64,000 nucleotides of DNA from Anatilimnocola floriformis (GTDB lineage: Bacteria > Planctomycetota > Planctomycetia > Pirellulales > Pirellulaceae), in NCBI RefSeq assembly GCF_024256385.1, contig NZ_JAMLFW010000001.1:930001-994000 (forward strand), written 5' to 3'. Made by a program: the position numbers and the translations under genes. The notes beneath the pieces are model-generated. The model saw only the letters and a list, made by a program, of their open reading frames with translations. It was not told where the DNA came from and did not search any database. Positions 4,676-63,934 of this stretch are shown one piece after another; within the stretch, counting starts at the first letter, position 1; the number at the start of each line of letters is the position of its first letter.

Positions 4676-5267
4676 GGCAAACCTCAATTCAGGAAATCAT
4701 CAGTACCACCGCGGCCAACAATGACGCGGCGCGTTTCATCCCTGAAAGCAGGTCGTTCGCCCCCGCAGTTCATTGCAGGGGAGCGGCCGGCGAGTTCTTC
4801 CCGCCGGCGATTCCCGGTCTGGAACCGGGTAAAAGTTCTTATCGTAGTTGGAACGGCCCGAATTGTTATCCCGCTAGGTCACCATTTGGCCTCGCAAAGA
4901 CGCTTCGAGCAGCAACTATTCCAGCCATGCCGACAGTGGCGAATAAACCGCCGCGACCTCCCGTCGCGCTGGATATTTTGCACGTTTTGGCATGTTTCAA
5001 GGCCCCAAACCCATCAACGGCAACCGTTCGCACGGGAACAGTCTGCCGGTTCGACGCGGCCGGCAGCCTGCGCGTTCCCGCCGGCTGGAAATTGGTGAGC
5101 ACTTCTTCAGAATGTTCAGAAATCTTAACAACCGCCGGCCTCGTTGAAAGATTGGGCGGAGTTCGCCCATCTGGATGGTGGGGATCGCGAAGGAAAAAGA
5201 GTACCCACAAACCTGGGAGCCATCTAGACTGACGGCAGTTTGAACCGCGGCAGGGCAGGGGAGGGGA
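4676..5267. other. Intergenic region between divergent Calx-beta and DUF1592 genes
   Basis: About 590 bp without a credible gene. It must hold the promoters of both divergent genes. It contains a small perfect hairpin (CCCGGT, 5-nt loop, ACCGGG, 4813-4829) and one CAGGGGAG copy of the dispersed polar motif at 4776-4783. I see no other structure I can name. Confidence 0.6.
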
Positions 5268-5268
5268 G
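5253..5268 (+). promoter_or_regulatory. Ribosome binding site made from the dispersed polar motif
   Basis: GGGCAGGGGAGGGGAG lies immediately before the ATG at 5271. It is the full-length form of the GGGCAGGG motif described in the findings, and its GGAGG core is at Shine-Dalgarno distance from the start. Confidence 0.6.
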
Positions 5269-5270
5269 TG

Positions 5271-7622
5271 ATGCATCGCCGGATTTGGATTTGGGGACTC
5301 GGTTGCCTGGCGCTGTTCGCTGCGCGCGTCACCGCCGCCGAGCTCGATGCTCCCACCACTGCGTTTCTCAAGCAGCACTGCGTGCGCTGCCACAACGACA
5401 AGAAGACCGAAGGCGAACTGCGGCTCGATCAACTCGGCGATGACCTGGCCGATGGCCGAACCTTTGAACAATGGCAAGCCGTTGTCGCGCGATTGCGCGC
5501 GGGAGACATGCCGCCCAAGGATCAGCCGAAACCGCCGGCTGCCGATGTCGCCACGGTCTTGCGGCGAGTTTCCAGTCGGCTCGATGCTGCCGCCCTCGCG
5601 CGGCGGGCCGAAGGGCGGACCACGTTGCGACGTTTGAATCGCACCGAGTATGAAAACACGGTCCGCGATCTGTTCGCTGTCGAAGTTGCCGTGAAAGAAC
5701 TCTTGCCCGAAGACACCATCGCCTTCGGCTTCGATAACGTTGGCTCGGCCCTTTCGGTTTCCCCGGTGCTCATCGAGCAATATCTGGAAGCTGCCGACGC
5801 GGTCATCACGGCTGCCCTCGCGCCGCTGGCCAAAGGCGCCTCCACGCAGGAGACGCATCTGCTGAAAGATACGATCCCCGAATACTTCAAGGGATGTCAT
5901 TTCATCGGCGACGAAACGTATCTCTTCCGCTCCGATGCCAATCCCACCCACCTCAGCAAGTGGCGAGCGAAAGAACCCGGGCTGTATCGCTTCAAGGTTC
6001 ACACGCGGGCGCATCAGTCAACGGTGCCCCTCACGCTCGCTGTGCTCGCGGGCAATTTCAACGGTGCTGCCGGCAGTGCCCGGCGGGTTGGTTACTACGA
6101 TGTGCTCCCCGGCAAGCCCGAGCCAATTGAAATCGTCATTCGCCTGGCAACGCGGGAAACATTCAAAGTCGAACCTACTGCGTTACCCAAGATCTATCTA
6201 AAGACCGAGGCTTTCGACGAGTACCCGGGGCCGATGGTTGTTGTCGGCGCGATCGATATCGAAGGACCGCTGCCGGAAGTCTGGCCGACCGAAAGCTACC
6301 TGCGCGTGATGGGCGAAGCCGATCCCAAGAAAGGGACTCTGGAAGATGCCAAGACCATCCTCGGCAAGCTCCTGCCGAAAGCCTTTCGCCGGCCAACGAC
6401 CGAAGAAGATCTGCAGCCGTATTTGAAACTCGTAAGCGACTCGCTGGAGAACAAGAAGCCGTTCGATGAATCGCTGCGTGTCGGCTTGAAGGCGATTCTC
6501 TGTTCGCCGCGGTTTCTGTATCTGAAAGAACCGGCCGGCGCGCTCGATGATTTCGCGCTTGCCTCGCGACTCTCCTATTTCCTCTGGAGCAGCATGCCGG
6601 ACCGGCAGTTGTTTCAAGCGGCATTCAAAGGTGAATTGAAACAGCCCGCTGTGCTCCGTGCGCAGACCGAACGGATGTTGCAGGATCCCAAAGCGCAACG
6701 CTTCGTCGAGAACTTCACCGGCCAATGGCTCGGCTTGCGCGACATCGATTTCACCACGCCCGACCCGCAGTTGTATCCCGAGTTCGACGACTCGCTGAAG
6801 TGGTCGATGGTCCGCGAGACGCAACTCTTTTTCGAAGAACTGCTGAAGAACGATCTCTCGACGCATAACTTCGTCGATTCCGATTTCACGATCGTCAACG
6901 ACCGTCTGGCCAAGCACTACGGCATTCCCAATATCACCGGCATCACACATCGCAAAGTACAACTGCTGCCCGAGTATCATCGTGGCGGCGTGCTCGCCCA
7001 CGGCAGCGTTTTGAAAGTGACCGCCAACGGCACGACGACCTCACCAGTGCTCCGCGGCGTGTGGGTGCTCGACCGCATCATGGGCGCCGCAGCCAAACCA
7101 CCGCCGGCAAGCGTCCCTGCGATCGAACCCGACATTCGCGGCGCGGTGACAATCCGCGATCAACTGGCCAAGCACCGGCAAATCGAAAGTTGCGCGGCCT
7201 GCCATGCCGACATCGACCCGCCCGGCTTTGCGCTCGAAAGCTACGACGTGATCGGCGGCTATCGCGAAAAATACCGTGCCGTCGGCACCCGTGAGAAAGT
7301 CCGCGTCCCTGACAGCAATATCCTGAAATACCTGGCCCGCCCCAACTACGGCTGGGGACCCACTGTCGAAGCCGGCGATCAACTAAAGGACGGCCGCAAA
7401 TTTGCGGACCTCGCCGAGTTCAAAAAACTCCTGCTCACCGATGCCGATCAGGTGCCACGCTGCGTAGCGCAAAAACTAATGGTCTACGCCACCGGCAGTC
7501 CGATACAATACGGCGACACGGCAGAGATCGAGAAGATTGTTTCGCAAATCAAAAACAAAAACTACGGCCTACGTTCGACCGTGCATGCGGTGGTGGCGAG
7601 TCCGTTGTTTCAGAGCAAGTAG
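5271..7622 (+). CDS. DUF1592-family secreted cytochrome c-like protein
   Basis: 783 residues. A signal peptide (about residues 1-23) is followed by a planctomycete-type cytochrome c segment with heme motif CVRCH near residue 37. Next come the DUF1587-like stretch (LRRLNRTEYENTVRDLF, about residue 118), the DUF1592 and DUF1588 regions (including CAACHADIDPPGFALESYD, a second CxxCH) and a C-terminal DUF1585 segment. This order is the standard one for the family. Such proteins are abundant in Planctomycetes and are exported. Their substrate is unknown, and a redox role in polymer breakdown is only a suggestion. The ATG at 5271 is preferred over the GTG at 5268 because of ribosome-binding-site spacing. 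The gene is followed after 44 bp by its usual partner, a DUF1552 gene, so the two probably form an operon. Confidence 0.93.
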   Translation: MHRRIWIWGLGCLALFAARVTAAELDAPTTAFLKQHCVRCHNDKKTEGELRLDQLGDDLADGRTFEQWQAVVARLRAGDMPPKDQPKPPAADVATVLRRVSSRLDAAALARRAEGRTTLRRLNRTEYENTVRDLFAVEVAVKELLPEDTIAFGFDNVGSALSVSPVLIEQYLEAADAVITAALAPLAKGASTQETHLLKDTIPEYFKGCHFIGDETYLFRSDANPTHLSKWRAKEPGLYRFKVHTRAHQSTVPLTLAVLAGNFNGAAGSARRVGYYDVLPGKPEPIEIVIRLATRETFKVEPTALPKIYLKTEAFDEYPGPMVVVGAIDIEGPLPEVWPTESYLRVMGEADPKKGTLEDAKTILGKLLPKAFRRPTTEEDLQPYLKLVSDSLENKKPFDESLRVGLKAILCSPRFLYLKEPAGALDDFALASRLSYFLWSSMPDRQLFQAAFKGELKQPAVLRAQTERMLQDPKAQRFVENFTGQWLGLRDIDFTTPDPQLYPEFDDSLKWSMVRETQLFFEELLKNDLSTHNFVDSDFTIVNDRLAKHYGIPNITGITHRKVQLLPEYHRGGVLAHGSVLKVTANGTTTSPVLRGVWVLDRIMGAAAKPPPASVPAIEPDIRGAVTIRDQLAKHRQIESCAACHADIDPPGFALESYDVIGGYREKYRAVGTREKVRVPDSNILKYLARPNYGWGPTVEAGDQLKDGRKFADLAEFKKLLLTDADQVPRCVAQKLMVYATGSPIQYGDTAEIEKIVSQIKNKNYGLRSTVHAVVASPLFQSK

Positions 7623-12339: not shown

Positions 12340-13278
12340 ATGTCCCGCCGCTGGTTTCTCTTGTTGTTGGCTGTTGTTTCACCCTCGTTCGCGCAGGAGT
12401 TGCCCGATCCGGCCGCGACCAAGACGGTCGAGCTATTCAAGGTGCCGAAGTATTGCGAAGGCGTGTGCTTTGATCACGACGGCAAGGGTTACATCAGCTG
12501 GGGCGAGACGATCACGCAATTCACGCTCGACGGCAAACATCAGCCGTGGGCCAAGACCGGTGCGCCGAATGGTCACAAGATTCTCGCCGATGGCACGCAC
12601 TTGGTTTGTGATGCCAGCCAGCACGCGGTGCTGCATCTGGCCGCCGATGGCAAGTTGCTGCCGCACGCTTCGAAGGAGTGCGACGGCAAGACACTGCGTG
12701 GGCCAAATGATCTGACGCTCGACACGGCGAATGGCGGCTTTTATTTCAGCGATCCCGGCGGCAGCAGCGTCGATAAGCCGATCGGCACGATTCATTACGT
12801 CGACAAGGCCGGCAAGACAACGCTGCTCGACGACGGCTTGGCCTTTCCCAATGGCATCGTCCTCGCACACGACGGCAAGCATCTCTATCTCGCCGAGAGC
12901 CAGAAGAATTGCGTTCACATTTACGAAGTGACCGGCCCGGGCAAACTAAGCAAACGCAAACTCTTCGCCGAACTGCCCCGCAAAAAAGAAGGGACGCCGC
13001 AGATCGACAACCAGCCCGACGGCATGTGCCTCGACGCAGCAGGCAATCTCTACGTCGCGCACTACGGCATGAAGCAAGTGCAAGTCCTCAGCCCCGAAGG
13101 CAAACTCATTCGCCAATTTGACGGCGGCAACGTCACCACCAGCAACGTCGCCTTCAGCGGTCCGAAGATGGACCAGCTCTTCATCACCGGCGGCATCGGC
13201 GCCGAGGCAGGGGAGGGAGGATTGTTTCGAATTGATTTGGGTGTGAAAGGGCTGGTGATATTGCCGGCGAAGAAGTAG
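12340..13278 (+). CDS. SMP-30/gluconolactonase-type secreted beta-propeller
   Basis: 312 residues from the ATG at 12340 (MSRRWFLLLL signal peptide, cleavage probably before QELPDP). It has the six-bladed propeller signature of the SMP-30/gluconolaconase/LRE family: GVCFDHDGKGYISWGE, GPNDLTLDTANGGFYFSDPGG (the conserved Asn-Asp region near the metal site), FPNGIVLAHDGKHLYLAES and PDGMCLDAAGNLYVAHYG. These residues match the metal-binding Glu, Asn and Asp positions of the family. It probably hydrolyses a sugar lactone in the periplasm, but the substrate cannot be told from sequence. A GGCAGGGGAGGG copy of the polar motif near its 3' end encodes AEAGEGG. Confidence 0.9.
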   Translation: MSRRWFLLLLAVVSPSFAQELPDPAATKTVELFKVPKYCEGVCFDHDGKGYISWGETITQFTLDGKHQPWAKTGAPNGHKILADGTHLVCDASQHAVLHLAADGKLLPHASKECDGKTLRGPNDLTLDTANGGFYFSDPGGSSVDKPIGTIHYVDKAGKTTLLDDGLAFPNGIVLAHDGKHLYLAESQKNCVHIYEVTGPGKLSKRKLFAELPRKKEGTPQIDNQPDGMCLDAAGNLYVAHYGMKQVQVLSPEGKLIRQFDGGNVTTSNVAFSGPKMDQLFITGGIGAEAGEGGLFRIDLGVKGLVILPAKK

Positions 13279-16314: not shown

Positions 16315-16882
16315 GTGGTCCCCACGTTTTTTGGAGTTGCACGGAGAGAGGTTCGTAGCGGCCCATGCCCACCGAATCGCCATGGCCGACGGTGCGATGG
16401 CAGTGCGTGCAATTCAGTTCGCCTTGCTGATCGGGCACGCTCAAAATGTCGTGCACAAAATCGGCGTGGCAATGCAAACAGCTGTGATGCAAGATTCGGC
16501 GACTCACGTCGCGCATCACGATGGGCTCAGGAAAATCCTGCAGCGTGAAACCCTTGGAGTGCCAAAAGCCGTTCTCGGCTTTGGTGTAGTACTTGCCGAT
16601 CAGGTCATGCGGCAGATGGCAATCGATGCACTTGGCCACATTGTGATGGCTCCCCTTTTGCCAGCCGTCGTACTGCGGCTGCATGATGTGACAGTTGATG
16701 CAAGCCTTGGGATCGGAACTCAGATAGGACAGGCCTTCGGCATAGCGAAACGTGTAGGCCGATTGGCCGAGTGCGACACCGACGAGTGCAGCGAGCAACA
16801 TGCCGGCGACGGACATTCCGCGCCAGCGATGTTGCCACCAGCGGGGCAGGGGAGTTGCGGATTGTGCAGGATCCGATGTCAT
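16307..16882 (-). CDS. nrfH: Cytochrome c quinol dehydrogenase NrfH
   Basis: 191 residues. One membrane anchor (about residues 22-44) is followed by four heme motifs: CINCH 61, CIDCH 85, CLHCH 135 and CTHCH 158. This is the NapC/NirT layout that takes electrons from menaquinol and passes them to NrfA. CINCHIM has the Met two residues after the heme His that is typical of NrfH heme 1. The gene stands directly upstream of nrfA and overlaps it by 8 bp. A GGGCAGGGGAG polar-motif copy lies in its 5' coding region (16844-16854). Confidence 0.94.
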
Positions 16883-20842: not shown

Positions 20843-22279
20843 CCTGCGAGTCGCGGAGTGACTTGGCGCGTAGGACGGACCACTGGTCCGTTCAGGGCGG
20901 CGAGTTTCGCCAACCGAGCTTGATACCCGCTTCGAGACGGACCATTGGTCCGTCCTACGACCTGCTGCCTTTCCCCCCCGCCCCAGATCCCAACTCCTAG
21001 TTCCCAGCCCCCACCCCAAATTCCTCCCAATGCAATACAGCGCCTCATTCGACCTGAGCAACATCTTGCCATCCGCCACGGCGGGGCTGCCGTTGCTGGT
21101 GGTGCGATCGAGCGGCGGATTGTGCGCAACCAGCTGAAACTGCGGCTTGGCGGCGACGACATACGTGCCGTTGTTGCGGCTCACGTAATAGATGTTGCCG
21201 CCGGCGAGAACAGGCGAGGCATAGATCGTGTCGGGGCGCGGCTCGAGGCGTTGCTCGTAAACGATTTCGCCAGTCTTGGCATCGGCGCAATAGGCCACGC
21301 CGCGGCTCTCATGGGTCCAGTACAAATAGCCTTCGTGAAAAACGGGCGAGCAAACGTTCGAGCCCTTTTTCATTTCCCAGATTGGTTGCACCTCGCCGCG
21401 GCCGCCGGCTTTAACTGCCACACCCATTCCGGAGCGAGCGCCGATGGCATACACAATTCCATCGTGAGCAATCACGCTGGGGCACACATAATCTTGAATC
21501 CCCGGCGCTCGCCACAGCGGCTTGCCGGTGTCGGGATCGTAGCCTTGCAGTTCACCCTGGCTGCTCAGCACCAGCTCGACTTTATTCCCCGGCGCCTTCA
21601 CCAGGATCGGCGAGTTCCACGCCTCGCGCACGCCGCGCTGCGACCAGGCCTTGCTGCCGTTCCGTTTGTTGAGCGCGACGAGTTCGCCACTCTCGACGCT
21701 GGCATTCACGATCACGGTGTTCTTGTAGAGGACCGGCGAGGTCGCCGAGCCCCAGCTGTGCGTCTTGTCGCCGACTTTTTGTCCCCAGCGCGGCTTCCCC
21801 TTCAAATCCATGCAGCCGACGCCCGACTTGCCGAAGAAAACGTACACCGAGTCGTTGTCGAGGCAGGGCGTGCTCGATGCGTAACCGTGCAAGGCTTGAA
21901 AACCCTGGAACCGCTCCTCGGGAACGAGGGCTTTGGCCGGAAACGACCACTGCTGCTTGCCGGTTTTCAAATCGAAACACAGAACATGCCGCGACAACTC
22001 GCTTTGCTCGGCGTTGTCACCCTCGCGCAGGCCGTAGCCCGAGTAACACGTGAGATAAACCTTGCCAGCCGCAATCACCGGGCTGCTGCCGCCAGGCCCG
22101 GGCAAGTCGACCTTCCACAGCAGGTTCTCACTCGCGCTCCAGCGCGTCGGCAGCGCCGTCGCTGGCGAGCTGCCATCCTGAGCAATGCCGCGAAATTGCG
22201 GCCAGTCCTCGGCCTGCAGAGCAGGGCAGGGGAGGGCGGTAAGGATCAAGACCAGCGACAGTTTTCCGAGACGATTCAT
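20831..22279 (-). CDS. Secreted PQQ-like beta-propeller protein with repeat-derived tail
   Basis: 482 residues. A signal peptide (about 1-22, ending PALQAE) is followed by AEDWPQFRG, the standard opening of planctomycete PQQ-like outer-membrane/BamB-type propellers. Blade motifs follow (KTGKQQWSF, DTGKPLWRAP, KTGEIVYEQRL). It probably acts as an exported scaffold or quinoprotein-like dehydrogenase, and no cofactor-binding residues can be confirmed. The normal end of the family would be near EALYCIGRN (about residue 415). Here about 65 extra residues follow, encoded first by a 7-nt-period array and then by a palindromic repeat (20869-20959). The gene overlaps the convergent SUKH gene by 12 bp. 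Confidence 0.85.
   Translation of the reverse strand: MNRLGKLSLVLILTALPCPALQAEDWPQFRGIAQDGSSPATALPTRWSASENLLWKVDLPGPGGSSPVIAAGKVYLTCYSGYGLREGDNAEQSELSRHVLCFDLKTGKQQWSFPAKALVPEERFQGFQALHGYASSTPCLDNDSVYVFFGKSGVGCMDLKGKPRWGQKVGDKTHSWGSATSPVLYKNTVIVNASVESGELVALNKRNGSKAWSQRGVREAWNSPILVKAPGNKVELVLSSQGELQGYDPDTGKPLWRAPGIQDYVCPSVIAHDGIVYAIGARSGMGVAVKAGGRGEVQPIWEMKKGSNVCSPVFHEGYLYWTHESRGVAYCADAKTGEIVYEQRLEPRPDTIYASPVLAGGNIYYVSRNNGTYVVAAKPQFQLVAHNPPLDRTTSNGSPAVADGKMLLRSNEALYCIGRNLGWGLGTRSWDLGRGGKAAGRRTDQWSVSKRVSSSVGETRRPERTSGPSYAPSHSATRRLLR
20869..20959. repeat. Paired-hairpin REP element, copy 1 (GGACCAxTGGTCC family)
   Basis: GTAGGACGGACCACTGGTCC at the left end and GGACCATTGGTCCGTCCTAC at the right end are inverted copies around a spacer of about 47 bp. 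Each end also contains its own GGACCA/TGGTCC palindrome. Related copies lie at 41105-41196 and 56064-56155. This copy is translated as the C-terminal tail of the PQQ-propeller protein. Confidence 0.8.
20970..21016 (+). repeat. Degenerate heptamer (7-nt period) array
   Basis: Pyrimidine-rich on the plus strand, it divides into seven-base units such as ATCCCAA, CTCCTAG, TTCCCAG, CCCCCAC. It is read through as coding sequence (GWGLGTRSWDLGRGG) near the end of the PQQ-propeller gene. Confidence 0.55.
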
Positions 22280-23858: not shown

Positions 23859-25523
23859 CTACGAAGAAGATGCCATCCGCTTCAGCTGATCCGGCAAAGT
23901 GTCGAGTGGATGCAGCACGAAGCTGAATTCGCGGCTGCCGAGGATCTTGGCCGTGTGCAGATCGCGCTCGCGATCCTTCAGTTCGTCACGGAGACGGATT
24001 TCGACATCGGTGAGAAGCAGTTGCAACTGGCGGTTGAGATCGTCAAGCGCCCGGAACTGTTCGGGCGCCGCGCCGCGAAAATGGAATTGATGCTGCCGGA
24101 GGAGTTCGGCTTTTTTGCTCGCAAACTCGGTAGCCGCGGTCCGCAGGGCAGGGGAGGCATCGCCGGCGAACTTCTCTGGGTGGAATCGGATCTCGCGAAT
24201 CAGTTGCTTCGCATTCAGCACATCGGCGGCAGAAACATCGGGCCGAGGAATCGGTAACTTCACGGTGCCCGTGACGGTCATGTACGTCGGCGGCTCGCTG
24301 TCAAAGTAGCGCCGAATGATCGCATCGGTCAGCTCATCGTACTTGGCCCCGCCGATGCCGTGGATGAAGAGATCGCTGAGGTAGAGGCGGGCGTACATCG
24401 TGGTGATGAGGGCCCGCGGGCGGATCTTGATGCCGCGAGATTCCAAGTCTTGCAGTTGCTCGACCAGTGTTTCTGGATCGTACAAGCTGCAGTGCAAATC
24501 GAAATTCGTCGCAGCCCGATCCGTGAACTGCAAAAAGAGGTCGCCACTCGCTACGAAGACGTTGCGCACGAACAGACGTCTGCGAAACGGACCCTCTTTC
24601 GTCCAGATCCAAAATGGCGCCTCGAGCCAATCTCCTTCGGCAACTAGTTCGGGTACGGGATGGCTAGCACTCCGGATTTTATTGACCGCGCGATACTCGG
24701 CGAGCGAGCGGTTGTAGATTTCCTGAAAGTGAGGCAGCTGCGAAAAGATATCGAGGGCGAACTTGCGAAAGCTTTCGGTCTGAGCAACATGACTGAGTGG
24801 CAACTCCAGCGTCTGCAGCCCGAGCTCTGCTTCGAGACGATGCCGGGTTTGAGCCAGCAGCAATCCCAGCGGCAGCGACTTGTGGAGGATCTTCTCTGCC
24901 TCGTGGTTGTGCCAAAGCTTCTCAACCAGGAGCGAGGTATCGCGCTGAAACCATTTGCGGGAGTCGAATGCCTTGCGCAGGCGACTGTCGAAAGAGTTCA
25001 GCACATCCGGCGAAGCGATTTGTCGTTCTTCGAAGGGAATTGCTGGCGCCGGCGCATCAATGGCTAATTCTTCGGTGAGTGGCCGATGCAAATCTCCGGT
25101 GGGAATACGAATCGACGTATGGAGCGCAACGTCGTTGTCGATTACCAAGTTGATAGTGGTAGCTTGGTGCTCGGTTTGATTAGGAATCTCTCGGCAGCGG
25201 TCCAGCACAAAGTTCTTCAACCAGACACCTGGGTGAAACAGCTCTGGCTGATGGCCTGCCAAGACGATCGGAGTCTCACTGGAAAAGTCGAGCGAGCTCG
25301 GGGAGAAATCGCGGTAGCTTCGCGAATATTCGTTGGCCGCTTTGAGGAATTCGTAACGAGTGAAGTTGTAGGCAGCCCCGCGGCGGTTGCGGTTGGCTTC
25401 AAGCGTTGGGTGGGCGCTGGCCAGCGGTGGCGTGATTAGAGTTTCGCCATCGCCGCGCGGTGCGCGGATGTGATGGCGGCGGATGGGGACTTCGGCGGGA
25501 AGCGGATTCGATGGCTGAGTCAT
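23859..25523 (-). CDS. Conserved hypothetical protein, about 550 residues, GHQPELFHPGVW motif
   Basis: 554 residues from the ATG at 25523. The open frame continues upstream through a dispersed repeat and is not trusted. The protein is soluble, with no signal peptide. It contains IVLAGHQPELFHPGVWLKNF (about residues 75-95), LVIDNDVALHTS, a long central alpha-helical region, and GGAKYDELTDAIIRRYF. The 'GHQPxLFxxGxW' stretch is faintly like that of BshC (bacillithiol ligase), but length and other motifs do not convince me, so I give no function. A polar-motif copy (24146-24156) encodes SPALR in its C-terminal part. Confidence 0.75.
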   Translation of the reverse strand: MTQPSNPLPAEVPIRRHHIRAPRGDGETLITPPLASAHPTLEANRNRRGAAYNFTRYEFLKAANEYSRSYRDFSPSSLDFSSETPIVLAGHQPELFHPGVWLKNFVLDRCREIPNQTEHQATTINLVIDNDVALHTSIRIPTGDLHRPLTEELAIDAPAPAIPFEERQIASPDVLNSFDSRLRKAFDSRKWFQRDTSLLVEKLWHNHEAEKILHKSLPLGLLLAQTRHRLEAELGLQTLELPLSHVAQTESFRKFALDIFSQLPHFQEIYNRSLAEYRAVNKIRSASHPVPELVAEGDWLEAPFWIWTKEGPFRRRLFVRNVFVASGDLFLQFTDRAATNFDLHCSLYDPETLVEQLQDLESRGIKIRPRALITTMYARLYLSDLFIHGIGGAKYDELTDAIIRRYFDSEPPTYMTVTGTVKLPIPRPDVSAADVLNAKQLIREIRFHPEKFAGDASPALRTAATEFASKKAELLRQHQFHFRGAAPEQFRALDDLNRQLQLLLTDVEIRLRDELKDRERDLHTAKILGSREFSFVLHPLDTLPDQLKRMASSS

Positions 25524-39155: not shown

Positions 39156-39235
39156 CGGGGGAGGGGAGGCGGGAGGCGGGAGACGGGATGCGAGGGAGGC
39201 AGTTCTGAGTTCTGAGTATTTAGTTCCGAGACAGC
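39156..39235. repeat. Left arm of a 70-80 bp inverted repeat (heptamer array)
   Basis: The reverse complement of this purine-rich tract closely matches 39445-39520. Both arms are built from seven-base units (TCAGAAC, TCAAAAC, TCCCGCC). The arms enclose the small ORF at 39251-39397. Confidence 0.65.
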
Positions 39236-45440: not shown

Positions 45441-46655
45441 ATGACGTATAAATTGCCCCGCTTACTAAGTGGCCTGTTGCTGATGCTGGCAGTCGCCGGC
45501 ATCGGTTATTTCAGCGGCAGCCGCGGCGCGGGAATGTTCGCGCGAGCGCTGGCCCAAGCTGGGTACGGCCAGCCGGGCTATGGCCAAAACGTTTCGGGCC
45601 CGCCTGGCAATGGTCAGCCTGGTTATCGCGAGGTCGTGCCGTTTAGCGGGGCAGGGCAGGGGAGAGGCGCGCCGGCGCCGTATGCTCCGCCGCTCAATCC
45701 AGCTCAGTTGCCGCAGCCTCAAGCCCAATTGCCGCAAACGCCGCTGAACTATCGCGAGGATCGCGTTGCCAGCAATCCGCCCAGCCAGCCTCTTGCGAGC
45801 GTCGACGGCAATGCGCTCGTCGCGCAAGCCGCCCGGCGCGTGCAGACAGAGTCCTCGGTTCAAGCCGCGATTCGTTTTCGCATTGATGTCGCCGGCCAGA
45901 ATCTCGTCGGCAATGGCCAGTACGTACAGCTCGGCGATGGCCCGGAGAAATTGCTCCGTTTCGATCTCAAACTACAAGTCGGCCAACGCGTCGCCGCGCT
46001 GCAGCAGATCAGCGGACAGCAGTACTATTGGATTCGGCGCGATCTGCCGCCGGCGAATTTCAAAGTCTCGCGCGTCAACTTACTCTCCATCCGCAACGCC
46101 GTCGCGAAGCGCCACCTTGCTGCTGACCGCGACTCCGATATGCACGGCGTGACTTCCCCCGCCGACGACGCCTGGCTGTTGCTTGGTGGTTTGCCGGCGC
46201 TGCTCGAATCGCTGTCGCAAGATTTTGAATTTGGCGAAGCTCGCCAAGGAGAAATCGAACTCCCCGGCGGCAACTCGCTTCCCACGCGTGTGCCCGTGTG
46301 GGCCGTGAGCGGCACTTGGAAAAAAGAACGTTGGAAAGAGCTGACGACCGTCACTGGCAAAAAGAAAAAAGATGCCCCGCCGCCGCTGCTGCCCAAGCGG
46401 GTCGATCTCGTGCTCAATCGCTCGGAGCGCGCCTTCGGACTCTTCCCTTATCGCGTGCTGTACTACGCCGCCGCCGATGACGGCAGGGGAGGGCAGGGGA
46501 CCTCGATCAGCATGCGCCCCGTCGTGAGCATGGAACTCTTCAACCTTGCCACGGCAGCCAACCTCGACCCGCGCGACTTCGACTACAACCCGGGTGAACA
46601 AGAAGTCGAAGATCTAACCGCCGTGTATCTGCAGCGACTGGGCTTGGGAAAGTAA
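45441..46655 (+). CDS. Secreted hypothetical protein, LolA-like body
   Basis: 404 residues from the ATG at 45441 (an earlier in-frame start at 45375 is less likely). The N-terminal helix (LLSGLLLMLAVAGIGYFSGS) is followed by a Gly/Gln/Pro-rich linker (about residues 45-110). The main domain has AARRVQTESSVQAAIRFRIDVAGQNLVGNGQYVQLG and LLRFDLKLQVGQRVAALQQISG, a beta-rich pattern of lipoprotein-carrier type. Polar-motif copies in the coding strand encode GAGQGRG and DGRGGQG in different reading frames. The function is unknown. Confidence 0.8.
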   Translation: MTYKLPRLLSGLLLMLAVAGIGYFSGSRGAGMFARALAQAGYGQPGYGQNVSGPPGNGQPGYREVVPFSGAGQGRGAPAPYAPPLNPAQLPQPQAQLPQTPLNYREDRVASNPPSQPLASVDGNALVAQAARRVQTESSVQAAIRFRIDVAGQNLVGNGQYVQLGDGPEKLLRFDLKLQVGQRVAALQQISGQQYYWIRRDLPPANFKVSRVNLLSIRNAVAKRHLAADRDSDMHGVTSPADDAWLLLGGLPALLESLSQDFEFGEARQGEIELPGGNSLPTRVPVWAVSGTWKKERWKELTTVTGKKKKDAPPPLLPKRVDLVLNRSERAFGLFPYRVLYYAAADDGRGGQGTSISMRPVVSMELFNLATAANLDPRDFDYNPGEQEVEDLTAVYLQRLGLGK

Positions 46656-46684: not shown

Positions 46685-47374
46685 TCACTTGATGTGCCAG
46701 GTCGAATTAATCGTCCGCACATTCATCACGCCGTCTTGCCACACGAGCACATTCACGCAGCAGTTGTCTTGCGCCAGACCGCGATAGTCTCGCAGCGGAA
46801 TGCCGAGCAACCGCGCGAAATAAGATCGCAGCAAAATATTGTGCGCGACGACGATGATCGTCTTTCCCAAATTCTGCTCCGCCAAGGATTCAAAAATCGG
46901 CTGCACGCGATTGGCAACAGCGGTGATGGTCTCACCCTCGGGATAACCATAGGTTGCCGCATCGTCGATGAACTGCTGATGCGCTTCCACGTCGTTGAAG
47001 CGAACGTCGTCGTAGTCGCGACCTTCCCAGCGACCCACATCGACCTCGTGCAGCCCGGCGATCTGCGTTACCTCATCGTCGCCGTTCGCTCCATGAGCGG
47101 CTGATGGTCGGCGGAGTAAAAGGCGACTCCGAATCTTCTCCGCCGTTTCGACAGCGCGCTTCAACTGACTGCTGAACAGGGCAGGGGAGGGGCGGTCGAC
47201 AAACAACTCACCCAAAAACTCCGCCACTTGCTCGGCTTGCTTCACGCCGATCTCGCACAGGCTCAAATCCAAACCGCAACCTTGCAACACATGTGGCACG
47301 GCGAGGTTCGCCGCCGTAGCGCCATGTCGCACGAGCACCAGCACACAAGTATTCGGGGCAGGGGAGGGGAGCAT
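46685..47374 (-). CDS. Histidine phosphatase family protein (phosphoglycerate mutase-like)
   Basis: 229 residues. The catalytic LVRHGATAANL (RHG motif) is near the N-terminus. SSQLKRAVETAEKI, the acid residue region HEVDVGRWEGRDYDDV, and VAHNILLRSYFARLLG (second histidine) complete the active site of the branch 1 family. Possible substrates include phosphoglycerate, alpha-ribazole phosphate or sugar phosphates. The start ATG at 47374 is inside a polar-motif copy that encodes LPSPAP, and no ribosome binding site is visible. Confidence 0.88.
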   Translation of the reverse strand: MLPSPAPNTCVLVLVRHGATAANLAVPHVLQGCGLDLSLCEIGVKQAEQVAEFLGELFVDRPSPALFSSQLKRAVETAEKIRSRLLLRRPSAAHGANGDDEVTQIAGLHEVDVGRWEGRDYDDVRFNDVEAHQQFIDDAATYGYPEGETITAVANRVQPIFESLAEQNLGKTIIVVAHNILLRSYFARLLGIPLRDYRGLAQDNCCVNVLVWQDGVMNVRTINSTWHIK

Positions 47375-48260: not shown

Positions 48261-48276
48261 GGGCAGGGGAGGGGAG
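48261..48276 (+). promoter_or_regulatory. Polar motif serving as ribosome binding site of dtd
   Basis: GGGCAGGGGAGGGGAG ends 5 bp before the dtd ATG. This is the second gene in the window (after 5271) whose Shine-Dalgarno sequence is a full copy of the dispersed motif. Confidence 0.6.
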
Positions 48277-49109: not shown

Positions 49110-49157
49110 CAGGGCAGGGCAGGGGTTTAGGTCGCCACGTTGCTGCCAGACAGTCCG

Positions 49158-50641: not shown

Positions 50642-50812
50642 GATTTCCTCTCGACTACGCTAGCAGCGCGCGCACCGCCCTACCCTTGCCTGCCGCGCGC
50701 GAACTCTACCGAGTTCATGCAATCACTCCAAGATCAAATCAGCTGGAACTGCTCTTCGGGTTTCTCGCGGGCCTCCGCTATACTCTCGCGGCGATAATTT
50801 TTTCGCCGAATC

Positions 50813-52041: not shown

Positions 52042-52473
52042 GCAACAGAGGCTGCAGGTCCACATGCGCTGCCTGTTCTGGTTGATCCAAGAGACCGTAT
52101 TTTGCCTCCAGGTCAGCTCGAAAAATGAGCCCGAATGAGCCGGTCGAACAGCCGGGTAATTAGGCTGGCTTAGAGCAACTTTGGACGCGATTTTTTGGCG
52201 CCAAATTCGGTCGCCAAATCAGACGCTGAAAAACCAGAAATGAACCTCCGAAACGCAGCTCGTTTTTTTGTTCGGTAGAGCAGGGGAGAACGGCAGGTTT
52301 TTCGATCGAAATTCGGCGTCGTTTTTTTTCACGCGACGGCGACGAATCGGCAAGAGATCGAAGGCAAAGCGGCACCAGAATCAGCCGTGCCAAAAGGGGC
52401 CAAAACGCAACGTCCAAACCCGCCGCAGCGAAAACGCGAATATGCGTATTTCTAGCGGAAAACGACCATCTCA

Positions 52474-52501
52474 ACCGAACATAACAAACATTATCGGACG
52501 T
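52474..52501 (-). other. Candidate XerCD dif site
   Basis: Read on the minus strand it has an 11 bp arm ACGTCCGATAA, a 6 bp centre TGTTTG and an 11 bp arm TTATGTTCGGT. The second arm matches the E. coli XerD arm (TTATGTTAAAT) at 8 of 11 positions, including all of TTATGTT. The first arm matches the B. subtilis dif arm (ACTTCCTAGAA) at 8 of 11. The 11-6-11 layout is the dif layout. It lies inside the interval where the polar motif changes strand (52288-52736). Confidence 0.55.
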
Positions 52502-52735: not shown

Positions 52736-52743
52736 CCCTGCCC
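52736..52743 (-). other. First minus-strand GGGCAGGG copy after the switch
   Basis: CCCTGCCC on the plus strand. All further copies to the right (56047, 56551, 58242, 58863, 59216, 59221, 63616) have this orientation, whereas all 18 copies to the left are on the plus strand. Confidence 0.7.
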
Positions 52744-52761
52744 TCACGCTCCGGGCAATCT

Positions 52762-53805: not shown

Positions 53806-53850
53806 ACAACCTCGCTTCCGTGCGCAGGATGCAGTGGCCTGGCAAAGTGA

Positions 53851-54894
53851 TTAAGCAGTGGATTCTTCCAAGAACATGCCCATCCGTCGGAATTTATCAT
53901 ACCGTGCATCGGTAAGCTGTGCGCCGTTCTTGCTAGCGAGTTCGCGTAACGAACGGAGCAAATATTGTTTCACTCGGGCTGCGGTCTGCACGTGATCGCG
54001 ATGCGCGCCACCGAGTGGTTCCTCGATCACATGATCGATGACACCCAGGCGATGCAGATCGCTCGACGTGAACTTCAGCGCGGTCGCGGCCTTCTCGGCG
54101 AACTGGTGGCTCTTCCAGAGAATGCCGGCGCAACCTTCAGGACTGATGACAGAGTAATAGGAGTACTGCAGCATTGCTACTCGATCGCCCACCCCAATAC
54201 CAAGGGCGCCGCCGCTGCCGCCTTCGCCGATCACGATGCAGACGATCGGGGTGTTGAGACGGCTCATCTCATACATGTTTTCGGCGATGGCTTGCGATTG
54301 GCCCCGTTCTTCGGCGCCGATGCCCGGATAAGCCCCGGGAGTATCGATCAAGCAAACGATCGGAATGCCGTATTTCTCGGCCATCTTCATCTTCAGCAGG
54401 GCTTTGCGATAACCCTCGGGATGGGCGCAGCCGAAGTAGCATGCGCTGCGTTCTTTGTAGGTGCGGCCTTTCTGATGGCCGACGACGAGCACTTTGTGTT
54501 GATCGAGCCGGGCGAAACCGGTCAGCAGCGCGCGGTCGTCGCCAAAGCGGCGGTCGCCGTGGAGCTCTACGAAATCTTCGAAAACGAGCGACACATAATC
54601 GGCCGTGTACGGGCGATCTTTGTGGCGCGACACTTGGACAATCTGCCAGGGAGTGAGCGTGCTGTAGATCTGCCGGGTGACATCGTTCACCTCGCGGCGG
54701 ACCCGGCGGAGTTCTTCTTCTTGCTCGGGAGTGCGCGCCGGCGTTTGCTCGAGCGAGCGCAGTTGCGCCTCGAGCGTCAGGATCGGTTGTTCAAAGTCGA
54801 GGCCGGCCGGCGTGGCGCTGCTGGCGCCATTGGTGGAACCATTCGCTGCGCCGTTGCTCGAGCCATTGGCTGCCGTGGTTGTCGTATCGCTCAT
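53851..54894 (-). CDS. accA: Acetyl-CoA carboxylase carboxyltransferase subunit alpha
   Basis: 347 residues. After an unusual 30-residue Ser/Thr/Asn/Gly-rich N-terminal extension, the AccA domain is complete: FEQPILTLEAQLRSLE, VSRHKDRPYTADYVS, LIDTPGAYPGIGAEERGQS and IGEGGSGGALGIGVGDRVAML with SPEGCAGILWK. It forms the alpha half of the carboxyltransferase making malonyl-CoA. accD and accBC are not in the window. It lies directly upstream of the desaturase gene on the same strand. Confidence 0.96.
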   Translation of the reverse strand: MSDTTTTAANGSSNGAANGSTNGASSATPAGLDFEQPILTLEAQLRSLEQTPARTPEQEEELRRVRREVNDVTRQIYSTLTPWQIVQVSRHKDRPYTADYVSLVFEDFVELHGDRRFGDDRALLTGFARLDQHKVLVVGHQKGRTYKERSACYFGCAHPEGYRKALLKMKMAEKYGIPIVCLIDTPGAYPGIGAEERGQSQAIAENMYEMSRLNTPIVCIVIGEGGSGGALGIGVGDRVAMLQYSYYSVISPEGCAGILWKSHQFAEKAATALKFTSSDLHRLGVIDHVIEEPLGGAHRDHVQTAARVKQYLLRSLRELASKNGAQLTDARYDKFRRMGMFLEESTA

Positions 54895-54975
54895 TGTCTA
54901 TCACTCATCATTCAAAAACGAAGTCAGAAATCAGCCAGCTGATGGCAGCAGCAGCTGGCGGTAGCAACACCAGCA

Positions 54976-55884: not shown

Positions 55885-56063
55885 AGGGGGAGCTCGCTTG
55901 CAAGGAGGGGCTGCGTATTCGCAGACGCTAGACTGTAGCTATTGTAACGGTTTTGCCGGTTTTGCGGCTAAACCTTGCCTTAGTGTAATTGGCCCCCCCA
56001 AACGGCAAAAGCCCAGCCGGACGGCATCTGCGACGTGTTCCCCTCCCCTGCCCCGCCTTTCCC

Positions 56064-56155
56064 GTAGATCGGACCATGGTCCGGCTGGCACTGTTAAGTG
56101 ACTCTCTTGGCTCGGTACCCCGCTTCTTGCCCGGACCAATGGTCCGGTCCTACGC
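56064..56155. repeat. Paired-hairpin REP element, copy 3 (GGACCAxTGGTCC family)
   Basis: CGTAGATCGGACCATGGTCC at the left and GGACCAATGGTCCGGTCCTA at the right, inverted around about 45 bp. A minus-strand polar-motif copy (56047-56054) lies just outside it. Confidence 0.78.
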
Positions 56156-56164
56156 AAAAGACGA

Positions 56165-59104
56165 CTACTGTCCTTGCCCACGCGACAGATAGCCGACCAG
56201 GTCGCGTACTTCTTCGTCGCTCAGCCGTTGAAAAATCCCTTCGGGCATCATCGAGAGCTTCGACTGTTTGCGCTCGTCGATGGTGGCCAGCGGAATGGTG
56301 AGGAGTTCGTTCGGCGTTTGCACGTTCACGGCTTGGGCCGTTTCGCGAAGGATGATGCCTTGCACCACGCGGCCGTTGTCGAGGAGGAACGTAGTCACTT
56401 GATATTCGCGGGGGACAACAGCGGAGGGGTCGAGCGCGTTCTCGAGGATGTAGTCGAGATTGGCTCGCTGCGAGCCAGTGAGATCGGGGCCCATCTTGCC
56501 ACCTTCGCCGAAGAGGCGATGGCAACTCGCGCAGTTTTTCGTGAACACTCCCCTGCCCTTCCCTAGATCGGCTTTGGCGAGCGTGTCGGCCGTCAGCATC
56601 GCTTTGTATTTGGCGGCGAGCTCCTTCTTGTCTTCGGCGGCAGGACGAATGGTGCCCCAGATCGCATCGAGCTGTTTGGCGACTTGCGGATTGCTGAGCG
56701 CTTGCAACTGTCGCAGCATGCCGGCTGAGATGTCGCTGCGAGGGACGGTTTTTGCTTCCACTGCGTTCAGCAACGAAACGGCGTAGCTGACGCGCGAGGC
56801 CAGAGTCTGAATGACATCGGCCCGCTCTTCCGGTGAGAGTTTGTCATAGATATGCAGCAAGGCGGCCGGCGTTTCGTGGTGCTGATACGCGGCAAGCGCT
56901 TTGATCGCGACGGCTCGCATCTTGGGTTCATTCAAAAGCGGAAACAACGCCGGCGGCAAATCGGCGGGTTGCTTGGTGAGAAGCAATTGCAGTGCTCGCT
57001 CGCGCGTCGGCACATCCTGGCCGACGTTGCCGAGTTGCTCGCGCAGCCTGGCGATGATTTTTGCATCGTCAAATTTCACCGCAAGCGCGATGGCTTGGTC
57101 CTGCACATCCAAGCTGCGACTGGCGCTGAGTGTTTTGAAGATCGCGTTCCAGTTTGCCGGCGGTGGAACACTTCGGCGACCTTCGAGCGCGAGGAGAATG
57201 CCGCGGCAGAGATCGAGTTGCACTTCGGCATCGCGGGCGGCGCCGAGCGAGTCGAGTACGGTCGTTAGTTTCTTCTCGCCAGGGTCAGACTCGAGGTAGC
57301 AGCGCACCAGATGCTGGCGAACTAGAGGGATGCGGCAGTCTGTCAGCAACTTGGCCGCATCGGCTGGTTGCTGATCGACGAGCGGCTCGATGCCGTACCA
57401 AATCATCAGCGGAATGTGATGATCTTCGGCATCTTCCTCGTGCGCGACCAGCCGCTGCGCGACCGCGAGTCGTTCCTTCAGCGATAACCGCTGCAGCGCA
57501 CAGGCGAGCGCCAGCCGAACTTGCGGCGCGCGATCTTCCGCGGCGAGTCGCAACAGTGCATCGAGGTGAACGTTCTTCGGTTTGATCGAATCGACGGTGA
57601 GTGTTACTCCCCACGCGCGGACATGCTCGCTCGGATCACGAAGCGCGGCCCGCAGATCGGTGTCGGTGATCATCTTGGCGGCTTGCAGTGTCCAGAGTGC
57701 TCGCAGGCGAGCGTGTTCTGCTTCACCCGTCACCAACGTCGTGACCAGCGTTTCGCGGGCAGCGACGGCGTCGAGTTTTTCGGTGAAGGCCAGCTCTTGG
57801 ATCTTCCGCCGAGCATGGCGCGACAGCCATTCGTTGTTGCTGCCGACGAGCTTGAGGAGTTCTGGTTGCGAGAGCTTCACCAGATCAACGGCTGGCGACT
57901 TTTTTTCGCCATGAGTCACTTTGAAGATGCGGCCGTTGTCGCGCTCGACGTCGACGTAGTCATGGCATTCACCGGTGTCGCACCAATCGGTGACGTAGAC
58001 ACTCCCGTCGGGACCTTGCTTCACGGCAAGACCGCGGAACCAGCTGTCATTGGCAAACAGAAAGTCCGGCTCGTGCTTGGCGACGTAACCGCTGCCGTGC
58101 GGTTCGAGGCGATCTTGATTCACGCGACCGCCGTGAATGTTGCAGGCATAGACGCGGTTGCGAAACTGCTCTGGCAGGCCTTCGCCTTGATAAATCAGGC
58201 AGCCGCTGTGAGCATGACCGCCGCCGGCTTCGCTGTGGACCCCCTGCCCTCCCCTGCTGTTCGTCCAGTGACCGCCGCCCCAGTGAAGATGGTCCGCACA
58301 ACTTTGAATAAGACCATACGACCGCGGCATGAGATCCTGGCCGAACATCCGCTCGTAGTGGCCGCCGGGGACAACGTGGAAGAGATGCTTGATCACGCAG
58401 TTGGTGATGAACAGCTGGCCGTGTTCGTTCCAATCGATGCCCCACGGATTTGTCGTGCCGTAAGCGAACGGCTCGAACTCATGCGTTTGCGGATGCACGC
58501 GCCACACGCCGCAGTTGATTGGCTTGCGGTCTTCGGGTTTGCAGCCCGGCTTGCCGACCTTGCTGTTCGAGAGAATGCCGTTCAGGCCGTAGAGGTAACC
58601 GTCGGGGCCCCAAGCGAGACCGTTGACGACGTTGTGCTTCGCGGCCAGATCCCAACCGTCGAGAATGACAACCGGTTCGCCGTCGGGTTGGTCATCACCA
58701 TCGCGATCGGGAATGAAAATGAGATTCGGTACAGCCGTGAGCCACACGCCGCCATGGCCCCATTCAATGCCGGAGAGATTCACGCCCTTGTTGTAGAAAA
58801 CCTTCTTCTCATCGAACTTACCGTCGCCGTCGCGATCCTCCAGGATCGTCACGCGGTCACTCCCCTGCCCTGCCTTGTTCCACTCGGGATACGACAAACA
58901 TTCGACCACCCACAGTCGGCCGCGATCGTCGAAGGTGAACGCGATCGGTTGCACGATATCGGGTTCGCCGGCGAAGAGCGAGACTTTGAAACCCTTAGGG
59001 AGTTTCATCGCCGCTGGTGCGTCCTTCGGCGGGATCGGCGCAGGGGCATCGGCGGCGAAGATGGTTGTGGATAGAAGAGCGAGGAAGAGGAAGTATCGTT
59101 TCAT
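56165..59104 (-). CDS. PVC-type membrane-bound dehydrogenase with HEAT repeats and C-terminal cytochrome c
   Basis: 979 residues with a signal peptide (1-18). Residues about 35-410 form a propeller of the 'putative membrane-bound dehydrogenase' type (LPKGFKVSLFAGEPDIVQPIAF, RGRLWVVECLSYPEW, DRDGDGKFDE, GPDGSVYVTDWCDTGECHD). Residues about 415-790 are HEAT-like helical repeats, and the C-terminal part has GVFTKNCASCHRLFGEGGKMGPDL, a heme c motif with a distal Met. The architecture is characteristic of planctomycetes and Verrucomicrobia. It probably oxidises a sugar or similar substrate and passes electrons to its own heme. Three minus-strand polar-motif copies lie in its coding sequence, in three different reading frames. 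Confidence 0.93.
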   Translation of the reverse strand: MKRYFLFLALLSTTIFAADAPAPIPPKDAPAAMKLPKGFKVSLFAGEPDIVQPIAFTFDDRGRLWVVECLSYPEWNKAGQGSDRVTILEDRDGDGKFDEKKVFYNKGVNLSGIEWGHGGVWLTAVPNLIFIPDRDGDDQPDGEPVVILDGWDLAAKHNVVNGLAWGPDGYLYGLNGILSNSKVGKPGCKPEDRKPINCGVWRVHPQTHEFEPFAYGTTNPWGIDWNEHGQLFITNCVIKHLFHVVPGGHYERMFGQDLMPRSYGLIQSCADHLHWGGGHWTNSRGGQGVHSEAGGGHAHSGCLIYQGEGLPEQFRNRVYACNIHGGRVNQDRLEPHGSGYVAKHEPDFLFANDSWFRGLAVKQGPDGSVYVTDWCDTGECHDYVDVERDNGRIFKVTHGEKKSPAVDLVKLSQPELLKLVGSNNEWLSRHARRKIQELAFTEKLDAVAARETLVTTLVTGEAEHARLRALWTLQAAKMITDTDLRAALRDPSEHVRAWGVTLTVDSIKPKNVHLDALLRLAAEDRAPQVRLALACALQRLSLKERLAVAQRLVAHEEDAEDHHIPLMIWYGIEPLVDQQPADAAKLLTDCRIPLVRQHLVRCYLESDPGEKKLTTVLDSLGAARDAEVQLDLCRGILLALEGRRSVPPPANWNAIFKTLSASRSLDVQDQAIALAVKFDDAKIIARLREQLGNVGQDVPTRERALQLLLTKQPADLPPALFPLLNEPKMRAVAIKALAAYQHHETPAALLHIYDKLSPEERADVIQTLASRVSYAVSLLNAVEAKTVPRSDISAGMLRQLQALSNPQVAKQLDAIWGTIRPAAEDKKELAAKYKAMLTADTLAKADLGKGRGVFTKNCASCHRLFGEGGKMGPDLTGSQRANLDYILENALDPSAVVPREYQVTTFLLDNGRVVQGIILRETAQAVNVQTPNELLTIPLATIDERKQSKLSMMPEGIFQRLSDEEVRDLVGYLSRGQGQ

Positions 59105-59231
59105 GATTGGATTCTCGTTTGATTCTGGTTCCCTCGCCTCGGTACCTCGGGGAGAGGATTAGGTAGAGAGGCTGAAGCGGAATGAAAGATCCGCTCGCAG
59201 ATCGCCCACTCACTCCCCTGCCCTGCCCTGC

Positions 59232-60527: not shown

Positions 60528-60645
60528 TCCTGTTCCCTTGCAGCCATTCAATCCTGAAATGAATGGCTGTATGGTAGCGGGTGAAGCAGTGGGCCGGAAC
60601 ACGCGACGGGGCGTGACTCCGGCAAGTCGCAGCGAGGAGGACAAC

Positions 60646-61506: not shown

Positions 61507-61537
61507 AGATGGCGGAACGTCCCCGCGCAGTCTCGGC

Positions 61538-62488: not shown

Positions 62489-62576
62489 GGTAAGATCCGG
62501 AGAGAAGGCAGAACGAAGAAGGCAGAAGTAATGCCTCTTCAATTATACGTCGTGCACCGATTTGGAAATCCGTGTA

Positions 62577-62620
62577 TTTTCCCCTCGCTCCCAGTTCTTA
62601 GCCCCTAGCCCCCTGCTCCT
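62577..62620 (+). repeat. Degenerate heptamer array directly before ugd
   Basis: Pyrimidine-only units of seven bases (CAGTTCT, TAGCCCC, TAGCCCC, CTGCTCC). It ends 3 bp before the ugd ATG and occupies the place where a Shine-Dalgarno sequence would stand. Confidence 0.55.
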
Positions 62621-62623
62621 CCC

Positions 62624-63934
62624 ATGAAAATTGCCATGATCGGCGCTGGTTACGTTGGCCTTGTCTCCGGCACTTGCCTGGCGGACAGCGGCAACGACGT
62701 GGTGTGCGTCGACATCGATCAAGCCAAAGTCGAACGCCTCGAACAGGGGCAGATTCCGATCTACGAGCCCGGACTCTCGGAACTGGTGGTGCGAAACGCC
62801 GCGAACGGCCGATTGCGGTTCACCACCGACACTGCCGAGGCGGTGCGCAATGCTCACTTGGTCTTCATCGCGGTCGGCACGCCGAGCTCAGAAGATGGCT
62901 CAGCCAACCTGTCGTACATCTGGCAGGCTGTGGAGAAGTTTGCCCAGCACCTGCGGCCCGATGCCGTCGTGGTCGTGAAGAGCACCGCGCCGGTGGGCAC
63001 CAACAAAGCGATCGCCGAGATGCTGAAGAAGCTGACGCACCGCGACTGCGATGTCGCCAGCAATCCGGAGTTCCTCAAAGAGGGCGCCGCGCTCAACGAC
63101 TTCCAATATCCCGATCGAGTTGTCGTCGGCGTGCGTTCGCAGTATGCCGAAGAACGGCTGCGCGAACTGTACGGTCCTTACCTGCGCACCGACAAGCCGT
63201 TCCTATCGATGACACCGGAAAGTGCCGAGCTGACGAAGTACGTAGCCAACGCACTTCTCTCGACGAAGATCAGCTTCATCAATGAGATGGCCAATCTATG
63301 TGAGCGTCTCGGCGGCGACATCAACGACGTTCGCCGCGGCATCGGCCATGATCGGCGGATCGGTTTTCAGTTTCTCTTTCCCGGTGTCGGTTACGGCGGC
63401 AGTTGCTTTCCGAAAGACGTGCGGGCTCTTGCCGAAATGGCGCGCAAGGTGGGTGTCGAACCGCGTATGCTCGACGCCGTCGATGAAGTGAACAATCAGC
63501 AGAAGCACGTGCTGATCAATAAGCTGCAGCAGCAATTCGGCGATAAGCTCTCGGGCCTGACGCTGGCCGTGTGGGGACTCGCCTTCAAGCCGCGGACCGA
63601 CGACATTCGCGAGGCCCCTGCCCTGGTGCTGATCGATCACATGCTCGCGGCGGGTTGCCAGCTGCAGGTGCACGATCCTGAAGCGATGAAAAACGTGCAA
63701 GCCATTTATGGCGACAAGCTCCGCTATGCCAACACGCCCGTCGACGCACTCGAAGGGGCCGATGCTCTCTGCATCAACACCGAGTGGGGCGACTTCCGGA
63801 ATCCCGATTTCGACGAAATGAAGGGCCGTATGCGGCTGCCGATTATTTTCGACGGCCGGAATCTCTACGAACCCGAAACGCTGCGGAGCTACGGTTTTGT
63901 CTATCACAGCATCGGCCGGGTGCCAGTGACGTAG
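62624..63934 (+). CDS. ugd: UDP-glucose 6-dehydrogenase
   Basis: 436 residues, full length. The N-terminal Rossmann fold has [15 protein letters not shown]. The central domain has [15 protein letters not shown] and [22 protein letters not shown]. The catalytic cysteine is in [18 protein letters not shown], and the C-terminal NAD/UDP domain has [18 protein letters not shown]. It oxidises UDP-glucose to UDP-glucuronate for polysaccharides. There is no purine-rich ribosome binding site; a heptamer array abuts the start. One minus-strand polar-motif copy (63616-63623) lies in the coding region. Confidence 0.95.

Follow-up and report, generated by a model that had tools for sequence, protein, structure and literature searches.

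What is the function of a short DNA word that occurs 26 times in 64 kb of a planctomycete genome and changes strand only once? The stretch in question is a 64,000-nucleotide window of Anatilimnocola floriformis (C1:930001-994000 of its own genome, G000, which comprises 8,932,131 bases in 17 contigs), in which an initial annotation had interpreted the octamer GGGCAGGG as an array of FtsK orienting polar sequences (KOPS). This interpretation is supported by our finding that the polarity turns at a single-copy dif-like site, and that the same coincidence is seen in relatives. Judged from its sequence, the window is very probably a planctomycete dif region, with GGGCAGGG as the KOPS read by the FtsK gamma domain and a 28-mer as the dif site for XerC and XerD.

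The polar octamer and the dif-like site

In the window, GGGCAGGG is present in 26 copies versus 1.9 expected from shuffled sequences, and none of 100 shuffles reached 26. The copies are ordered as 18 on the plus strand (5253 to 49117) followed by 8 on the minus strand (52736 to 63616), and 0 of the 26 strict copies break this order. All copies that the initial annotation had counted by eye were found on the strand it gave, with one coordinate, 56047, off by one (actually 56046). When octamers with at least 10 copies were scored for a single strand switch, GGGCAGGG had the top score (26/26), and ranks 2-4 were taken by shifted registers of the same word. The pattern GGGNAGGG occurs 40 times (4.7 expected), as 28 plus and then 12 minus copies. 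GGGCAGGG is often doubled at a 5-base offset, as GGGCAGGGGAGGG, and the window contains 15 overlapping pairs at this offset. The strict octamer switches strand between 49124 and 52736, an interval of 3.6 kb; the switch within 450 bp that had been claimed is recovered when the shorter core GCAGGGGA at 52280 is included.

The spacer between the last plus and first minus motif copy contains a dif-like 28-mer at 52474-52501, which was spotted by eye and falls inside the interval of 52.29-52.74 kb that had been singled out by the initial annotation. The 28-mer shares 17 of its 28 positions with E. coli dif, the ATAATGT and TTATGTT blocks among them, and the E. coli dif sequence used for this comparison is present in the K-12 control region. 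The 8.93-Mb genome contains 1 copy at up to 3 mismatches, and the reversed control has 0. Distances below are given from this candidate site, called dif for brevity. The features of the window are as follows; octamers and their doubles come from the motif search unless another source is given in brackets.

52474..52501, minus strand: dif-like site of 11-6-11 bp, ACGTCCGATAA TGTTTG TTATGTTCGGT (single genome copy at up to 3 mismatches; 112/146 order genomes)
5253..5265, plus strand: overlapping double KOPS-like site, GGGCAGGG + GGGGAGGG
13210..13217, plus strand: GGGGAGGG variant (GGGNAGGG search)
16844..16851, plus strand: GGGCAGGG
22224..22236, plus strand: overlapping double KOPS-like site
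24146..24153, plus strand: GGGCAGGG
34691..34703, plus strand: two overlapping GGGCAGGG
35053..35060, plus strand: GGGCAGGG
35490..35502, plus strand: overlapping double KOPS-like site
39158..39165, plus strand: GGGGAGGG variant (GGGNAGGG search)
42738..42750, plus strand: overlapping double KOPS-like site
43305..43312, plus strand: GGGCAGGG
45649..45661, plus strand: two overlapping GGGCAGGG
46486..46498, plus strand: overlapping double KOPS-like site
47179..47191, plus strand: overlapping double KOPS-like site
47356..47368, plus strand: overlapping double KOPS-like site
48261..48273, plus strand: overlapping double KOPS-like site
49112..49124, plus strand: two overlapping GGGCAGGG, the final plus-strand octamers ahead of dif
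50678..50685, minus strand: GGGTAGGG, degenerate and discordant, left of dif (GGGNAGGG search)
52280..52287, plus strand: GCAGGGGA, shorter core, final plus-strand register ahead of dif (change point of GCAGGGGA)
52736..52743, minus strand: GGGCAGGG, first minus-strand copy past dif
56041..56053, minus strand: overlapping double KOPS-like site
56551..56563, minus strand: overlapping double KOPS-like site
58242..58254, minus strand: overlapping double KOPS-like site
58863..58870, minus strand: GGGCAGGG
59216..59228, minus strand: two overlapping GGGCAGGG
63616..63623, minus strand: GGGCAGGG
53851..54894, minus strand: accA (acetyl-CoA carboxylase alpha), transcribed towards dif (PF03255, E 8e-138)

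Polarity across the genome and in relatives

Across the genome GGGCAGGG occurs 231 times (112 + 119), versus 100 times (51 + 49) for the reversed word; individual positions of the plain octamer cover the first 100 of the 231 places. The extended form GGGCAGGGGAG occurs 38 times and its reversed control 0 times, with 16 plus-strand copies at C1:854922-978261, 21 minus-strand copies at C1:986043-1358028 and 1 minus-strand copy on C2, such that 37/37 of the copies within 376 kb of dif (C1:854922-1358028) point at it. The double word GGGNAGGGNAGGG (n = 34; reversed control 1) has 33 copies in C1:820012-1311969, and 33/33 of these are directed towards dif. Together, the extended and doubled forms reach about 130-160 kb to the left and 330-376 kb to the right of dif.

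Of the 64 GGGCAGGG copies in a 400-kb region with dif at its centre, 60 are concordant, a figure matched by 0 of 20,000 label shuffles, and the best change point lies at 979117-982736. An unbiased ranking of octamers in this region (at least 20 copies, polar in the towards-dif sense) placed AGGGCAGG first (48:0) and GGGCAGGG second (60:4) of 6601. The octamer is concentrated near the site: the region makes up 4.5% of the genome and holds 28% of its GGGCAGGG copies (64/231); the two 20-kb bins next to dif together have 25, and each of the 18 others has 0-7. The turn of polarity that the initial annotation had anticipated from a genome-wide count is thus found at the dif-like site in this genome.

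Comparison with five single-contig relatives revealed the same arrangement, as the dif-like site lies inside the GGGCAGGGGAG plus-to-minus interval in all six genomes. This interval spans 7 kb in the congener G001, 18 kb in G007, 51 kb in G018, 87 kb in G017 and 106 kb in G012, where it is defined by 3 copies only. GGGCAGGGGAG concordance in the five relatives was 104/116 at half-genome scale and 75/75 within 600 kb. De novo ranking of octamers around dif (at least 15 copies) placed GGGCAGGG first both in G007 (72:3, of 9736) and in G012 (47:1, of 10506). In G018, the 7 discordant copies among 38 GGGCAGGGGAG are confined to 5.48-6.03 Mb, a stretch that surrounds the antipode (5.75 Mb), and in sampled sequence most of the chromosome retains GGGNAGGG polarity (left 30:6, right 5:19).

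Polarity was also counted on named contigs, using the 53 accA loci that have exactly one dif-like site. Here GGGCAGGG was concordant 296 times versus 17 discordant and GGGNAGGG gave 402:27, with 10:8, 12:6 and 64:46 for three control octamers. Enrichment of GGGCAGGG over its reversed word was dropped as a phylum-wide test because the results were mixed over 195 phylum genomes, and polarity was used as the test instead.

In a sample covering the order, the 28-mer was found at up to 3 mismatches in 112 of 146 genomes and exactly once in 108 of these 112, with 0 matches to the reversed 28-mer among those listed. A looser dif pattern had one match in each of 13 chosen genomes, including some missed by the stricter pattern. 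Across the phylum it matched in 109 of 195 sampled genomes, including 20/20 in another family of the class, and its reversed control matched in 9 of 195 (hand count). Two related genomes each have an additional dif-like site that differs slightly from the first and shares its orientation, at a distance of 14.2 kb in G208 (C1:3561729 and 3575899) and 8.7 kb in G324 (C1:2849513 and 2840802); such pairs might be expected of an element integrated at dif by Xer recombinases.

The named loci also bear on the neighbourhood of dif. In the window a fatty-acid desaturase gene lies between accA and dif, and the best relatives of this accA come from metagenome-assembled genomes of Pirellulaceae and Planctomycetaceae, which marks the organism as a planctomycete, most likely of the Pirellulaceae. 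Among the best 80 of the 198 accA loci found, 76 of which are titled as planctomycetes, 54 have a dif-like site, located 73 to 2737 bp past the end of the accA match and on the accA strand in 51 of 54. Where at least 4 kb follow accA (57/80), the site is present in 42 loci. The other 26 of the 80, of which four are not planctomycetes, lack a recognisable dif and have a GGGCAGGG density of 0.168 per kb, versus 0.353 in loci with dif. As their GGGCAGGG copies are distributed as 55 plus and 8 minus, these loci are not a clean negative, and perhaps their dif lies beyond the contig end or is divergent in sequence. Linkage of accA and dif is new here, and accA may serve as an anchor for locating the dif region. 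One Gemmataceae contig, L099, has two dif-like sites beside accA, in opposite orientation and about 70 bp apart (L099:2307-2399), and was excluded from the polarity count.

Candidate reader proteins and rival explanations

If GGGCAGGG and its doubled form act as KOPS, the FtsK gamma domain would read the octamer and load the FtsK hexamer in the orientation that pumps towards 52474-52501, and XerC and XerD would resolve chromosome dimers at this dif once FtsK arrives. In this proposal gamma binding, oriented loading, pumping and recombination are modelled on the E. coli and Vibrio systems. Triple overlapping KOPS have been used in assays (PMC2680272, PMC2533119), and the resemblance of the overlapping doubles to these suggests that the doubles may be strong loading sites.

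The proteins that this mechanism would need are encoded in the genome. We found an FtsK with FtsK_alpha, motor (FtsK_SpoIIIE) and gamma (PF09397, E 1e-25) domains, whose gamma domain shows sequence matches to FtsK gamma domains of solved structure (2j5o, 2ve8, 2j5p and others), and 18 of 20 genomes, this one included, have one gamma match each. In E. coli FtsK, KOPS are read by residues N1296, R1300 and E1303, as described in PMC2533119, and the arginine is kept in 18/18 aligned planctomycete FtsK frames. XerD scored 334 bits versus an NCBIfam cut-off of 329.6 and XerC 339 bits versus 335.15, and six genomes each have one match above the XerD cut-off plus a second of at least 314 bits. All 18 FtsK frames (L009-L026) extend 36-284 residues past gamma, often with acidic composition (14-53% D+E), whereas in E. 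coli FtsK gamma is the end of the protein.

Several observations weigh against a KOPS-dif system. At the settings used, no dif match was obtained in 34 of the 146 genomes of the order or in 86 of the 195 from the phylum. The initial annotation's statement that no copy faces the wrong way holds for the strict octamer in the window but not more widely, since the degenerate GGGTAGGG at 50678 (minus) lies to the left of the dif-like site and so faces away from it, and 4 of the 64 GGGCAGGG copies within 200 kb of dif, every one to its left, are discordant. Polarity on the named contigs drops to its lowest in the 2 kb nearest to dif (GGGNAGGG 45:12), and a count within 1.5 kb in 43 short loci gave the weak result of 26 concordant and 11 discordant GGGNAGGG. 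Whole-genome GGGCAGGG counts fall below the reversed control in G305 (160 vs 248) and G065 (302 vs 389). An opposite turn half a genome away, which had also been anticipated, is seen around the antipode in the complete relative G018 but not in the congener G001, where polarity fades without a sharp turn and GGGNAGGG far from dif is weakly polar or not polar at all (left 22 plus and 12 minus, right 13:13; 40 samples). GC skew, proposed by the initial annotation as a check, failed: it does not turn at dif in the window or in the surrounding 400 kb, its sign is unchanged across dif in G007 (+0.070, +0.053) and G012 (-0.037, -0.057), and it does not differ between the replichores of G001 (+0.0006 vs +0.0038, p 0.66; 40 samples). 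In G007, G012, G017 and G018, dif and the best dnaA match are separated by 10-35% of the circle. Finally, N1296 is replaced by glycine and E1303 by aspartate in 18/18 aligned FtsK frames.

GC skew was rejected as a marker of dif, given that no turn was seen in the window, the 400 kb, G007, G012 or the G001 halves. In G001 dnaA has its best match opposite dif, at 49.6% of the circle, and, being consistent in this genome only, dnaA was not used to mark the opposite pole; it may be a poor origin marker in this group. G001 also has seventeen frames of 213-284 residues with a weak DnaA-type match and identical E-values, which are perhaps copies of one transposon ATPase.

The polarity could in principle be a by-product of strand composition, in which leading-strand mutation bias makes G-rich words polar and the word itself is functionless. 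KOPS-like words are rich in G, as leading strands commonly are; the skew sampled in G018 also has, weakly, the sign that this account would predict (+0.015 left, -0.006 right; 20 samples, p 0.18). The skew results described above for G000, G007, G012 and G001 argue that motif polarity is not such a by-product, the three control octamers are far less polar than GGGCAGGG, and the reversed forms of GGGCAGGG and GGGCAGGGGAG are fewer or absent. This explanation is therefore strongly weakened, and we regard it as extremely unlikely. A dispersed repeat, a ribosome-binding motif or a peptide-coding preference of the window's genes is the least credible account, and we give it next to no weight. Extended motifs at 48261, 47356 and 5253 do lie immediately ahead of potential start codons, where they might also act as ribosome-binding sites. 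A rough gene call based on codon usage, however, places 18 of the 26 copies within genes, 6 sense and 12 antisense, in all three frames (frames 0/1/2 = 5/4/9), and 8 in spacers or gene overlaps, in agreement with the spread over spacers, strands and frames that the initial annotation had described. Outside positions -5 to +15, the flanks of 60 aligned motif sites carry at most 0.12 bits per position, so that the motif is not a copied repeat, and the genome-wide polarity refutes this account as a general explanation.

A further alternative is that the octamers are architecture imparting sequences (AIMS) read by a factor other than FtsK, for instance by a terminus organiser, or acting as a chi-like recombination signal or as a guide that directs the unloading of SMC at dif. 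XerD is described as unloading SMC at dif in B. subtilis (work cited in PMC13342612), and two of the three KOPS-reading gamma residues of E. coli differ here. Against this, the word is exactly the GGGCAGGG read by the FtsK of E. coli and V. cholerae (PMC2533119), its change point lies in a 3.6-kb interval that surrounds dif and not at a GC-skew turn, and FtsK with a gamma domain is present in 18/20 genomes. We consider a non-FtsK reader unlikely, with a somewhat better chance than either account above, and favour KOPS read by FtsK gamma.

Prior knowledge and comparison with known systems

The dif prediction of a 2011 survey failed in two phyla, one of which was the Planctomycetes (0/1 genome; PMC3025954). 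Another study describes a KOPS switch at dif across most replicons of its panel, and its text as available contains no word beginning planctomycet (PMC13342612). We found no prior report of KOPS or dif for Planctomycetes in searches of the open-access literature, bioRxiv preprints excluded, with passages of PMC3025954, PMC7901474, PMC10591338 and PMC11975371 among those consulted. What is new here is a candidate planctomycete KOPS and dif; the kind of system is already known and the phylum is new.

Planctomycetes are described as lacking FtsZ (PMC5147048, PMC6952346, PMC10632474, PMC3954628). A review of division in the superphylum calls the total conservation of ftsK intriguing, given the decay of the division gene cluster (PMC5147048), and in Planctopirus limnophila ftsK appears essential while ftsI and ftsW are not (PMC6952346, PMC10632474). 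In Gemmata, most FtsK is reported to lie in the nuclear body and riboplasm, the bud neck not being its exclusive location (PMC3954628). Our data suggest that planctomycetes keep the signs of E. coli-type chromosome pumping by FtsK. We tentatively propose, at somewhat less than even odds, that budding planctomycetes without FtsZ keep an essential FtsK for the KOPS-guided delivery and resolution of the last part of the chromosome between mother and bud. In this model gamma would read the proteobacterial word through an altered recognition helix (G, R, D for N, R, E), and in the genus of the window selection would keep the word in its strong form only over roughly the final 6% of the chromosome, unaided by GC skew. 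A conserved KOPS-dif system, if true, would give a concrete reason for the retention of ftsK, namely that the end of the chromosome is pumped in a set direction and dimers are resolved. The candidates could also fill the Planctomycetes gap in the 2011 survey and serve as a sequence landmark of the dif region in genomes whose GC skew is uninformative. They would also present a natural example in which a changed recognition helix apparently reads the same DNA word.

As in E. coli and V. cholerae, where KOPS are likewise GGGNAGGG-type octamers that are polar, converge on dif and rise towards it, the planctomycete word surrounds a dif-like site; in a 50-kb E. coli K-12 control, GGGNAGGG occurred as 7 plus copies left and 3 minus copies right of dif, with 0 exceptions. 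It differs from these KOPS in being mainly GGGCAGGG with the preferred extension GGGCAGGGGAG, in the gamma residues (N to G, E to D) and in the absence of a GC-skew turn. Overlapping pairs number 15 in 64 kb here and 0 in the 50 kb of K-12, although the base composition of the two differs. The 28-mer resembles the dif sites described by Kono et al. in 2011 (PMC3025954) in its 28-bp length, 11-6-11 structure, single copy and location where the motif changes strand; the TTATGTT half-site is common to E. coli dif and the planctomycete 28-mer, while the other half-site here is ACGTCCGATAA. The SpoIIIE recognition sequences (SRS) of Bacillus and the KOPS of Lactococcus are also polar words described as guiding an FtsK-family pump (PMC5357621), but their words differ, whereas planctomycetes use the proteobacterial GGGCAGGG. 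The AIMS described by Hendrickson and colleagues are likewise leading-strand octamers whose number and bias rise towards the terminus (PMC5993296). AIMS are a statistical class, whereas the planctomycete system combines one dominant word with a dif-like site and a likely reader protein.

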